Shown here one piece after another: positions 40,728-44,616 of a stretch of 64,000 nucleotides of DNA (its first letter is position 1; every line of letters begins with the position of its first letter). The notes under the pieces are model-generated. The model saw only the letters and a list, made by a program, of their open reading frames with translations, searched no databases and was not told the origin of the DNA. A program made the translations under genes and the position numbers. Origin of the DNA: Acidobacteriota bacterium (GTDB lineage Bacteria; Acidobacteriota; Blastocatellia; UBA7656); assembly GCA_040754075.1 (NCBI GenBank), contig JBFMDH010000024.1, positions 1 through 64,000 of the forward strand, read 5' to 3'.

Positions 40728-41654
40728 CTAATCTTCATCTGCTACTTTGAGTTTAATGCTTGGGTAGGTAGTTGTTTGGTTCCCCTCTTCATCAAAAGCT
40801 CTCACGATGAGCTTATGAGTTCCAGGGCTGAGTTTTAAATGAGCATCCCAATAACTCCAAACCCAGGGGTTATAATTTTTGTGTACTTTAGCGGGTTTCC
40901 AGGATTTTCCACTATCGCTTGTGACTTCAACCCGACGAATCAATTTGCCGTTGCTGGCAATCGCATATCCTTCAACCACCACCACATCATCAAAAACCAT
41001 ATCGCCATTTCGCGGTCGGGAAATAATTACCCTTACTTCATTATCGGGGTCTGAATGCGCCACCGAATGCGTCACGCCCTGTTCAACTTTGGTGAGCAGT
41101 TGAATTTCGTTTATCCATTTAATCGCGCTGGTTTCAAAGTCGTTTGGAATAATCACCCGCAATGGATAGCCATCCATCCTGGTGAGCGGTTCGCCATTCA
41201 TTTCGTAAGCCAGCAATACTTCAGGATGAAGCGCTTTTTTAATCGGGATTGCCCCTGCTGAGGTCATGACTTTGGGGTTAGCCAAACCTTCATTTCCACC
41301 TAAAAACACCACGTGAGTCGCCTCTGGTTTAATCCCTGTGGCTAATAATAAGTGACGCAAACGTATGCCTCCCCATTTGGCTAGTTGATTATTCTTGGTC
41401 ACTCCATCACGGCAAAACGGTGCCATTAAATTTACTTTGGGAAAATCCTCATGAATATCATCAAGCGTCAGACTCAATCTTTTTATGACCAAGCCATCAA
41501 CGGTCAACCGGTAACTTTCGCTGTTGAATCCGGGGATTGATTGAAATGAATGCTCGCCTGGGAAAATATTTGCATCCGGCGCGGCGTCAAGCGCGGTGGC
41601 TTCAAATGAAATTGATTGACTTGAATAATCCTTTTGCATTTTGGCACTGAACAT
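40728..41654 (-). CDS. Sulfite-oxidase-family molybdopterin oxidoreductase
   Basis: Protein of 308 residues with the two sulfite-oxidase domains: a molybdopterin domain (about 45-185; C81 in LMAPFCRDGV is at the place of the Mo-ligating Cys, WGGIRLRHLLLATG, and YEMNGEPLTRMDGYPLRVIIP) and a Mo-co dimerisation domain (about 205-305; RRVEVTSDSGKSWKPAKV). It oxidises sulfite or a similar oxoanion. No signal peptide is visible. The N-terminus is shorter than in most family members. The longest frame starts at GTG 41756, but ATG 41654 has GGAGG 5 nt upstream and is chosen. A c-di-AMP riboswitch lies in its leader. It stands near a persulfide dioxygenase gene, whose product releases sulfite. Confidence 0.85.
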   Translation of the reverse strand: MFSAKMQKDYSSQSISFEATALDAAPDANIFPGEHSFQSIPGFNSESYRLTVDGLVIKRLSLTLDDIHEDFPKVNLMAPFCRDGVTKNNQLAKWGGIRLRHLLLATGIKPEATHVVFLGGNEGLANPKVMTSAGAIPIKKALHPEVLLAYEMNGEPLTRMDGYPLRVIIPNDFETSAIKWINEIQLLTKVEQGVTHSVAHSDPDNEVRVIISRPRNGDMVFDDVVVVEGYAIASNGKLIRRVEVTSDSGKSWKPAKVHKNYNPWVWSYWDAHLKLSPGTHKLIVRAFDEEGNQTTTYPSIKLKVADED

Positions 41655-41920
41655 AAACCCTCCGTTCCATCTAATCCCAATTAGGGAAATAGACCTGTCG
41701 AGAATTGGATAAAACCGATTTATCCCTGGTTTCGAGTAAATGAAATTCACCGACACGGACGCCGTATCTTTAGAATTCCAATAAATTTTAGAAGGGAGTT
41801 ATGCGGGAAAGTTACTTTAGAGGAATTGGCTTCGTAACCAATCGAAGATTCTCTATTCCCAACCAATTATCAATCGAAATTTTTGTATAGCGGATTGATG
41901 AATCGGTTCCCTTCCTTTTA
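41655..41920 (-). other. Leader between riboswitch aptamer and molybdoenzyme gene
   Basis: 266 nt of untranslated leader between the aptamer and ATG 41654. I looked for a terminator with a U run that could be the expression platform and found none; only short pairings such as ATTGGTT/AACCAAT near 41827-41843. Control may therefore act on translation or RNA stability, or the platform is not obvious by eye. A 29-codon plus-strand frame at 41801 is probably spurious. Confidence 0.45.
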
Positions 41921-42050
41921 GCCTACGAGGTTAGCTGACGGGCTTGGGCTGGAAGTACCCTACGCAAAATCTGCGATGCGCCCCATGCTCTTAAACAAGA
42001 GCGTTGGTTCCCCCGTGTCGTTCACAGCGTGTGAACGACTTCGGCAGATA
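41921..42050 (-). promoter_or_regulatory. ydaO/yuaA-type (c-di-AMP) riboswitch aptamer
   Basis: Read on the minus strand, the RNA contains the conserved blocks of the ydaO motif: CGGGGGAACCAA, then a hairpin arm, GGGGCGCAUC, GGGUACUUCC, and the near-invariant 3' block CCGUCAGCUAACCUCGUAGGC at 41921-41941. A strong 9-bp hairpin (GUCGUUCAC/GUGAACGAC) replaces the small 5' stem. P1 is short (GCC/GGC). The family binds cyclic di-AMP and usually lowers expression of potassium-transport or cell-wall genes. Here it leads a sulfite-oxidase-like gene. Identity is from motif recall, not a covariance search. Confidence 0.82.
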
Positions 42051-42066
42051 AATTGTCAACGAGTGA

Positions 42067-42096
42067 ATGGTAAATTTTTATCTTGAACGCTGTCAA
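42067..42096 (-). promoter_or_regulatory. Promoter of the riboswitch-molybdoenzyme transcript
   Basis: On the minus strand TTGACA (42096-42091), an 18-nt spacer, then TACCAT (42072-42067). Start of transcription is predicted near 42060, about 10 nt before the aptamer, which fits a riboswitch leader. The -35 box is perfect; the -10 box matches 4 of 6. Confidence 0.6.
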
Positions 42097-42173: not shown

Positions 42174-42707
42174 TTACCGGCGATTTCGTAGCAGTTTAAT
42201 TATTTCCTCAACGATTTGGTCAATGGTTTGCTCACCGGCAAAAATCCGCAAATCAGCTTGGGCATAAGCGCTGCTTCGCTGGTTAAACAACTCTTGAACC
42301 AAGGTTTTATTGCGAGCAAGCGGCCTTGACCCGTCAAATTCAATCCGTGTAAGTATCGTGGCAATCGGGCAGTCCAACCAAATCGAAACGCCCATTCCTC
42401 TGGTCAACTGCTGATTTTTCTCGTTCACAAATGCCCCTCCACCAAGGGCAATCACCGCCTCACACAATTGTTTACAATCACTCAAAGTTTGACTTTCAAG
42501 TTCTCGAAAAAACGCTTCACCCGATTCGCGAAAAATATCCGGGATACTTTTTTCAACTCGCTTGACAATTAAATCATCAAGGTCAAAAAACTGCCGGTTC
42601 AGGTTTTCAGCCAGCGCCCGACCGATGGTGGTTTTGCCAGCGCCCATAAATCCGACCAGAAAAATATGCCCGTTGGTTTTCAATGAATTTTTACACACAT
42701 CATTCAT
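42174..42707 (-). CDS. aroK: Shikimate kinase
   Basis: P-loop kinase of 177 residues: GFMGAGKT (residues 19-26) is the Walker A motif, DLDDLI carries the shikimate-binding Asp, FRESGEAFFRELE holds the conserved Arg and Glu, and IALGGGAF is the GGG loop. It phosphorylates shikimate with ATP in the aromatic amino-acid path. Its start overlaps the stop of the ArsR gene by 4 nt (ATGA), so translation is coupled to a regulator gene rather than to aroB or aroC. aroA lies about 1.9 kb away on the same strand, with a divergent gene between. Confidence 0.93.
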   Translation of the reverse strand: MNDVCKNSLKTNGHIFLVGFMGAGKTTIGRALAENLNRQFFDLDDLIVKRVEKSIPDIFRESGEAFFRELESQTLSDCKQLCEAVIALGGGAFVNEKNQQLTRGMGVSIWLDCPIATILTRIEFDGSRPLARNKTLVQELFNQRSSAYAQADLRIFAGEQTIDQIVEEIIKLLRNRR

Positions 42708-43054
42708 CGGTTTGAAAAACCTCTGACCGCCCCATGTTTTGCGGCAAGGTGGTTATCGATACTTGAACAGACGGTCTCGCATAGAGTAAAAATCCCTTCG
42801 TCCGCGACTTTATAAAAGGTATTCAAACCCTCTTTGCGTCGGGTGACGATTCCTTCGTTAAGTAAAATGCCTAAATGTTTCGAGACATTTGCTTGCCCGC
42901 TGCCCGTGGCATCAACGATTTCCGTAACGCTCATCTCACCCTCTCCAAGGGCATTTAAAATTTTCAACCGCATCGGTTCAGATAATGCCCGAAATCGAAC
43001 GGCGATAAGTTCAAGCGCCTCATCAGTCAATTCTTTTCGCTGTTTTTTTCCCAT
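42704..43054 (-). CDS. ArsR-family transcriptional repressor
   Basis: Winged-helix regulator of 116 residues: FRALSEPMRLKILNALGEGEMSVTEIVDATGSGQANVSKHLGILLNEGIVTRRKEG is a complete ArsR domain. The C-terminal helix has Cys92 and Cys96 (LCETVCSSIDNH) plus Asp and His residues, a possible thiol/persulfide switch or metal site. BigR/SqrR persulfide sensors have one Cys in the N-terminal part and one at the C-terminal helix; here both are in the C-terminal helix, so a related but different sensor is possible. It is divergent from a persulfide dioxygenase-rhodanese gene, the usual BigR target type. It has a strong SD (AAGGAGG). Confidence 0.88.
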   Translation of the reverse strand: MGKKQRKELTDEALELIAVRFRALSEPMRLKILNALGEGEMSVTEIVDATGSGQANVSKHLGILLNEGIVTRRKEGLNTFYKVADEGIFTLCETVCSSIDNHLAAKHGAVRGFSNR

Positions 43055-43079
43055 GCTTCCTCCTTAAAACCGCAACACT

Positions 43080-43109
43080 AAATTACCACATAGTTATATA
43101 TGTAAACAA
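43080..43109 (-). promoter_or_regulatory. arsR-aroK promoter with a palindromic operator in the spacer
   Basis: Minus strand: TTGTTT (43109-43104), 18 nt, TAATTT (43085-43080), 26 nt before ATG 43054. The imperfect palindrome ACATAGTTATATATGT (43088-43103; arms ACATA/TATGT) fills the spacer, the classic place for an ArsR operator. A repressor there would control its own gene and possibly the divergent gene at 43234. Confidence 0.55.
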
Positions 43110-43233
43110 CTGGATAAATTTTTAATATTGGCAGCAACATCCGACTCAGTTGGGTTGCCATTGCTCTGAATAAATAGTAGTTTTCCCTTTCATCGGAAAG
43201 ATTGTAGAAAAAATTCTGCAATTTGGAGGGGGT

Positions 43234-44616
43234 ATGTCTTTCAAACAATTCTATCTGGGCTGTTTGGCTCATGCTTCTTACTTAATTGGCTCCCAGGGGG
43301 ATGCCGCTGTCATTGACCCGCAACGCGACATCGAACAATACCTATCCGAAGCCAGCCAAGCAGGCTTGAAAATCAAGTACATTATCGAAACCCATCTGCA
43401 CGCCGATTTCGTCAGCGGTCATCGAGAGTTGGCTGAAAAAACCGGCGCGCAAATCGTTTTCGGAGAAAAAGCCAGGGCGAACTTTCCGCATCTTGCGGTT
43501 CGGGATGGCGATGAATTACCGGTTGGCAATATAACCTTGAAGATTTTAGAGACTCCGGGACATACCCCTGAAAGTATTTCGATTCTCGCCATTGATGCAA
43601 CCGGTAGTGAAACTCCGAAAAGGCTGTTTACCGGCGACACCCTGTTTATCGGTGATGTCGGACGACCCGACCTGGTTGGCGCAAAAGGCTATACCGCTGA
43701 AGTCATGGCGGGAATGCTTTACGATAGCCTGCATAATAAAATATTAACCCTTGATGACCAGGTTGAGGTCTACCCGGCACATGGCGCGGGTTCGATGTGC
43801 GGTAGAAATATTTCAAGTGATACCTTTTCAACCCTCGGCAACCAACGGAGATTTAATTACGCGCTGCAACCGATGAGTAGAGAATCATTCATTAAATTAA
43901 TGACCACAGACCTTCCCGAAGCGCCTGCCTATTTTCCGGTTGATGCCGAATTGAACCGACAGGGTGCAGGTTCACTCAAGGATTTACCAGAGCTTCCGGC
44001 GCTTTCGCCCAAGGAAATTATTGCGTTATTCCAACACGGAGCCACCATTCTGGATGTTAGAAATGCTGCCGCTTATGGAGCCGGACACATCAAAGATTCA
44101 ATTAATATCGCGCTTGGCGGACAATTTGCCTCGTGGTCTGGATGTTTGTTGAATTTAAACGAGCCAATCATCATCGTCTCGGAAAGCCAGGAAGGCGTGA
44201 ATGAAGCGCAAATGCGTTTAGCGCGTGTCGGCATTGAAAACGTAAAAGGTTATCTCGACGGTGGTATTAAATCCTGGAGCGATGCCGGCTTGCCGCTGGC
44301 AACCATTGCACAAATCAGTGTTGAAGAACTTCAACAACGGCTCAATGAAAATAAACATCTCCAATTAATTGATGTAAGACGCACGGGTGAATTTAAGAAC
44401 GGGCACGCGCCCGGCGCAATCAATATCCCGCTCGCGTCGATTGCAAAGGCAAATCTTTCGGTGGATTCGCTTGAACCTACACTGGTGATTTGTGCGGGCG
44501 GTTATCGTTCGAGTGCGGCAACCAGTATTTTAGAGCGCCGGGGTTTTCAAAATCTCTGCAATATAGTTGGTGGAACCAGCGCCTGGATTAATGCCGGGTT
44601 GCCAATCGAAAATTAG
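43234..44616 (+). CDS. CstB-like persulfide dioxygenase-rhodanese fusion
   Basis: Protein of 460 residues with three modules. An N-terminal MBL-fold persulfide dioxygenase carries H54-L-H56-A-D58-FVSGH63, later GHTPESI and PAHGAGSMCG. A middle rhodanese-like domain (about 260-352) lacks an active Cys (IIIVSESQEG). A C-terminal rhodanese (about 360-456) has C420 in VICAGGYRS. This order is that of Staphylococcus CstB, which converts per- and polysulfides to sulfite and thiosulfate. The site is complete. It is divergent from an ArsR gene with an operator-like palindrome and has a GGAGGGGG SD. Its stop directly abuts that of aroA. Confidence 0.88.
   Translation: MSFKQFYLGCLAHASYLIGSQGDAAVIDPQRDIEQYLSEASQAGLKIKYIIETHLHADFVSGHRELAEKTGAQIVFGEKARANFPHLAVRDGDELPVGNITLKILETPGHTPESISILAIDATGSETPKRLFTGDTLFIGDVGRPDLVGAKGYTAEVMAGMLYDSLHNKILTLDDQVEVYPAHGAGSMCGRNISSDTFSTLGNQRRFNYALQPMSRESFIKLMTTDLPEAPAYFPVDAELNRQGAGSLKDLPELPALSPKEIIALFQHGATILDVRNAAAYGAGHIKDSINIALGGQFASWSGCLLNLNEPIIIVSESQEGVNEAQMRLARVGIENVKGYLDGGIKSWSDAGLPLATIAQISVEELQQRLNENKHLQLIDVRRTGEFKNGHAPGAINIPLASIAKANLSVDSLEPTLVICAGGYRSSAATSILERRGFQNLCNIVGGTSAWINAGLPIEN

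Follow-up and report, generated by a model that had tools for sequence, protein, structure and literature searches.

Cyclic di-AMP (c-di-AMP) is known for its control of potassium, osmotic and cell-wall functions. The riboswitch class that senses it (ydaO/yuaA, RF00379) has been reported to act on transporters of K+ and amino acids and on genes for cell-wall or osmotic functions (PMC7266159), and a member from Dehalobacter favours termination in vitro (PMC9337991). Here we analyse an aptamer of this class in the window, the whole 64,000-nt stretch of DNA under study, which lies on contig C24 of a 7.58 Mb Acidobacteriota genome (G000). Judged by the genes that follow the aptamer in this and other genomes, its link with sulfur appears to be real, with sulfate uptake as the main target.

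Results

A c-di-AMP aptamer with its own promoter

The features of the locus are, in the order of transcription:

42067..42096, minus strand: sigma-70-type promoter TTGACA-N18-TACCAT, matching 10 of 12 consensus bases and lying 10 nt before the aptamer
41870..42068, minus strand: segment paralogous to the leader of the sulfate operon on contig C1 (locus L034), by pairwise local alignment
41905..42056, minus strand: c-di-AMP riboswitch aptamer (ydaO/yuaA, RF00379), 81.3 bits, cut-off 38, full model
41655..41904, minus strand: leader that joins the aptamer to the start codon, with a weakly C-rich, G-poor stretch at about 41785-41854; search for an intrinsic terminator negative
40728..41654, minus strand: orphan gene of the sulfite oxidase fold (308 aa), first gene downstream of the aptamer, its ATG at 41654 preceded by GGAGG

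The RNA in the window is an ordinary member of RF00379. The cmscan match spans positions 1-134 of the 134 in the model with an E value of 2.5e-17, the cut-off being the Rfam gathering score, and it is the sole Rfam match inside the window. The window copy agrees at all 39 columns whose conservation among 138 aptamers is 90% or higher. Covariance score and conserved columns together rule out a chance or look-alike aptamer and bear out the ydaO riboswitch that the original prediction had placed on the minus strand. The extent then proposed, 41921-42096, hits the right site, but its limits take in the promoter and cut the 3' end of the aptamer. The promoter had been recognized correctly: TTGACA begins at 42096 and TACCAT ends at 42067. 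In each of the family's five sulfate-operon leaders, the sequences show a TTGAMA-N17/18-TAnnAT pattern at the corresponding position ahead of the aptamer, and no second promoter-like site was found on the minus strand between aroK and the sulfite-oxidase-fold gene.

The start codon stands 250 nt beyond the end of the aptamer model. A search for a minus-strand intrinsic terminator across this leader found none, and its minimum-energy folds revealed no convincing switch or alternative structure. The C-rich, G-poor stretch contains 18 C and 9 G in 70 nt, and in the predicted fold a 7-nt element is complementary to the aptamer tail (GAAGGGA/TCCCTTC). These features may be taken as weak hints of a Rho-dependent or other expression platform. 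The same scan found no terminator either in the single-copy sulfate leaders L036, L037 and L038 of the family, so that a missing terminator is no proof of lost function.

Two of the outcomes named beforehand as speaking against the prediction, the lack of a covariance match above threshold and the lack of a diadenylate cyclase, did not occur. G000 encodes one such enzyme with a DAC domain (149 bits) in the gene order cdaA-cdaR-glmM, cdaR and glmM being named by reading the sequence. From the presence of this gene the host is predicted to be able to make c-di-AMP.

Duplication from a sulfate-operon leader

Besides the window copy, G000 carries exactly one other RF00379 site, at locus L034 on contig C1 (74.9 bits). 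This aptamer heads a complete sulfate ABC-transporter operon, sbp-cysT-cysW-porin-cysA. Its Sbp scores 242.7 against TIGR00971 (cut-off 155.5) and one permease 265.6 against TIGR02139 (cut-off 246.1). The second permease exceeds the cut-off of the general permease model TIGR00969 and is best named CysW, yet it stays under the CysW equivalog's own cut-off; CysA carries ABC_tran. A strong terminator, GAGCGCGGAG-loop-CTCCGCGCTC-TTTTT, follows the C1 aptamer, and the in vitro termination behaviour of the Dehalobacter riboswitch (PMC9337991) would fit this layout. In the sulfate operon led by the aptamer, cysA (L294:2409-4289) is fused to a C-terminal universal-stress-protein (Usp) domain. In KdpD a Usp domain binds c-di-AMP (PMC8214093), and by analogy the domain on CysA could conceivably provide a second layer of c-di-AMP control.

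The window and C1 aptamers are 79% identical, the next best match of the window copy being 59%, and among 95 class aptamers no other exceeds 61% identity to either G000 copy. In a tree of 138 aptamers the two form sister branches with a support of 0.965. Homology between them begins 12 nt before the aptamer, extends about 35 nt beyond it and ends just before the C1 terminator. In the four other genomes of the family that bear the riboswitch, it occurs once per genome and always stands at the sulfate operon. The simplest reading of these sequence relationships is that the window aptamer is a duplicate, made in the G000 lineage, of the sulfate leader. A horizontal arrival is not favoured, the closest relative being the other copy in G000; viral contigs, scanned for an exact pattern from the window aptamer, gave no match.

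Differences between the two copies fall at none of the 39 conserved columns and at 36 of the 122 other columns (Fisher 1.3e-5). The first hairpin has five substitutions between them, and all its pairs are kept, two via changes on both sides; five randomly placed changes preserve pairing in this way in 0.3% of trials (random P 0.003). Because the conserved columns are intact and stem pairing is preserved, both G000 aptamers appear to have been kept functional by selection, although the stem changes could all be on the C1 side.

Aptamer-led sulfate operons in other genomes

An RF00379 aptamer precedes sulfate operons in 13 genomes:

L034, L035, L036, L037, L038: family of G000 (five genomes)
L072, L075, L110, L112, L115: another family of the class (five genomes)
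L250, L271: other Acidobacteriota groups (two genomes)
L240, 91.7 bits: Candidatus Neomarinimicrobiota (one genome)

The Sbp proteins of L034 and ten further loci exceed the TIGR00971 cut-off; for L036 and L038 the identification comes from alignment with the L034 Sbp, to which their proteins are 76-77% identical. A motif search of 80 Sbp loci from many phyla detected the aptamer at two of them, L240 and L170, the latter apparently belonging to the genome of family member G005. The association of aptamer and sulfate operon is real; it is also restricted, since no other of the 80 loci gave a match. At L240:1476-5191 the aptamer leads a DUF2490 gene followed by sbp-cysT-cysW, a layout found likewise in L112 of the Acidobacteriota, and transfer of the whole unit is possible.

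Other targets of the aptamer in the class are potassium- or amino-acid-permease-like, KdpA-like, M23 peptidase, Ddl, SPFH and FAD/NAD-binding genes, names beyond the Pfam and NCBIfam matches having been read from sequence. The aptamer stands before the gene for an FAD-NAD(P)-binding protein in L041, L051, L056, L060, L062, L067, L082, L085, L093, L104, L120 and L124; this protein is PF13454 in the one locus scanned, and a large acyl-CoA-synthetase-like gene follows in most of these loci.

An element conserved over about 110 nt lies 3' of the RF00379 aptamer at L047:5145-5292 and in 24 further loci (L042, L048, L057, L068, L070, L071, L073, L076, L079, L081, L090, L091, L092, L095, L097, L099, L102, L106, L108, L111, L113, L114, L118 and L123). 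It has invariant GAAG and GTCTTCTC blocks and is without a conserved open reading frame. In most loci an intrinsic terminator follows, often with a convergent M1-peptidase gene next, and an Rfam scan of three loci returned no family besides the aptamer. From its sequence, the combined aptamer and element looks like a c-di-AMP-controlled small RNA.

An orphan gene with the sulfite oxidase fold

The assignment of the first downstream gene to the sulfite oxidase family holds for domains and fold, and is not supported for the identity of the enzyme. The protein contains PF00174 Oxidored_molyb (2e-34) and PF03404 Mo-co_dimer (1.4e-13), and the best PDB match that Foldseek returned for its AlphaFold model (mean pLDDT 80) is SorA sulfite dehydrogenase (E 6.5e-28). 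With SorA and SUOX it shares these two domains, the fold, R166, K179 and the Mo-ligand Cys: C81, its only Cys, sits in the invariant Mo-ligand column of 23 homologues. It differs from them in its length of 308 aa, in G84 in place of the Asn after the Cys, in D161 in place of the His of HGFP, and in a shortened C-terminus. There is no Tyr in residues 186-206, the region of the catalytic Tyr, and no export signal is evident. Its scores are far under the cut-offs of all the sulfite dehydrogenase equivalogs (128 against 600 bits for SorA, 111 against 420 for SoxC and 71.5 against 570 for SorT). On these sequence grounds, naming the product a sulfite oxidase is not justified. The model also matches PruR, a pterin-binding protein of the same fold (Foldseek 7.5e-06 and 1.9e-05), and a pterin-binding role without catalysis is possible.

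The best relatives in 396 genomes of the phylum have an overall identity of about 31-33%, with local stretches of no more than 41%; no orthologue was found in 58 relatives, in the 396 phylum genomes or in the genome contig scan. A comparison of the leader in relatives, as originally suggested, places the aptamer before sulfate operons; the pairing of aptamer and window gene cannot be compared across genomes because the gene is without an orthologue.

Adjoining the riboswitch, at 42704-44616 of the window, an ArsR-family regulator gene is divergent from a gene encoding a fusion of metallo-beta-lactamase and double rhodanese, which resembles persulfide dioxygenase with sulfurtransferase domains. 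The two are possibly a sulfide-detoxification pair, and such neighbours make a sulfur role of the window gene plausible.

Discussion

Based on these observations, we propose that a genuine aptamer, together with its promoter, was duplicated from the sulfate leader, now heads the transcript of the orphan gene and lets c-di-AMP act there, an explanation towards which we lean with some reserve. At the sulfate operon, c-di-AMP binding would favour the terminator after the aptamer, as an OFF switch of the kind known from studied members of the riboswitch class, and at high c-di-AMP sulfate uptake would fall. The window copy would then bring the sulfite-oxidase-like gene under the same signal. Since the window leader lacks the ancestral terminator, Rho-dependent termination or translation control would be needed at this gene. 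As far as the sequences go, c-di-AMP control of the window gene is plausible.

Is the window copy still a switch? The promoter and aptamer might have been copied without a platform, leaving a duplicated relic that binds its ligand and switches nothing while the copied promoter drives the gene. The homology with C1 does stop just before the terminator, and the window leader yielded none. With 30% differences at the other columns, however, a relic of such age should not have a fully conserved core, and single-copy sulfate leaders of the family (L036, L037 and L038) are likewise terminator-free by the same scan; we regard such a relic as unlikely, while giving it real weight. It is considerably less probable that the window RNA works as a small regulatory RNA on its own, or on a target other than this gene, which would then have an undetected promoter of its own. 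At least 25 relatives do have an RF00379 aptamer with a terminated non-coding element behind it and then a convergent gene, but the window leader has no apparent counterpart of the element that those RNAs conserve, and it also offers neither a terminator before the gene nor another promoter-like site on the minus strand. Very improbable, finally, is a drift in which the family's aptamers exchanged c-di-AMP for an adenine nucleotide related to sulfur, such as pAp or APS. Adenine nucleotides do arise in sulfate assimilation, and both G000 copies precede sulfur-tied genes; against this, all 39 conserved columns are shared with aptamers that precede potassium-permease-like and cell-wall genes, and G000 possesses a diadenylate cyclase.

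What are the implications of a duplicated aptamer for c-di-AMP signalling? Returning to the explanation that we favour, the window copy offers a clean example, inside a single genome, of a riboswitch that was duplicated and placed on a new gene. A broader proposal, which we advance tentatively and hold to be somewhat short of probable, is that c-di-AMP controls sulfur-oxyanion metabolism in Acidobacteriota by means of a cassette that was established on sulfate uptake and then copied to a sulfite-oxidase-fold gene, where it would work with a platform other than an intrinsic terminator. The original prediction had tied c-di-AMP to sulfur oxyanions through the window gene. The tie itself gains from the ancestry of the aptamer in a sulfate-operon leader and from the 13 genomes; the part that rested on the gene is weakened, as its product is no demonstrable sulfite oxidase and its leader presents no clear platform. 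With a conserved aptamer before sulfate-uptake operons in several Acidobacteriota families and also in a second phylum, the roles of c-di-AMP would extend to sulfate nutrition. A possible chemical reason for such a link lies in shared enzymes: pAp, a by-product of sulfate assimilation, and pApA, a breakdown product of c-di-AMP, can share DHH-DHHA1 phosphatases. The literature searched, Block 2010 and Nelson 2013 not among it, contained no report of a c-di-AMP riboswitch with sulfate transport, and the sulfate regulon of this riboswitch is probably new.

How does the locus compare with described systems? In relation to the RF00379 class, the window match is full length with an intact core, the genome has a cyclase, and the C1 copy displays the terminator layout of a transcriptional switch (PMC9337991); the window copy differs in being without a recognizable terminator. 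The genes behind the second G000 aptamer make up a complete operon of the sulfate ABC-transporter type (sbp/cysP-cysT-cysW-cysA), which differs from that type by its c-di-AMP riboswitch leader, described for such an operon in none of the papers searched, by the porin inside the operon and by the Usp domain that ends CysA. Set against the known targets of the riboswitch class (PMC7266159), those described here are a sulfate-uptake operon and a sulfite-oxidase-fold gene.
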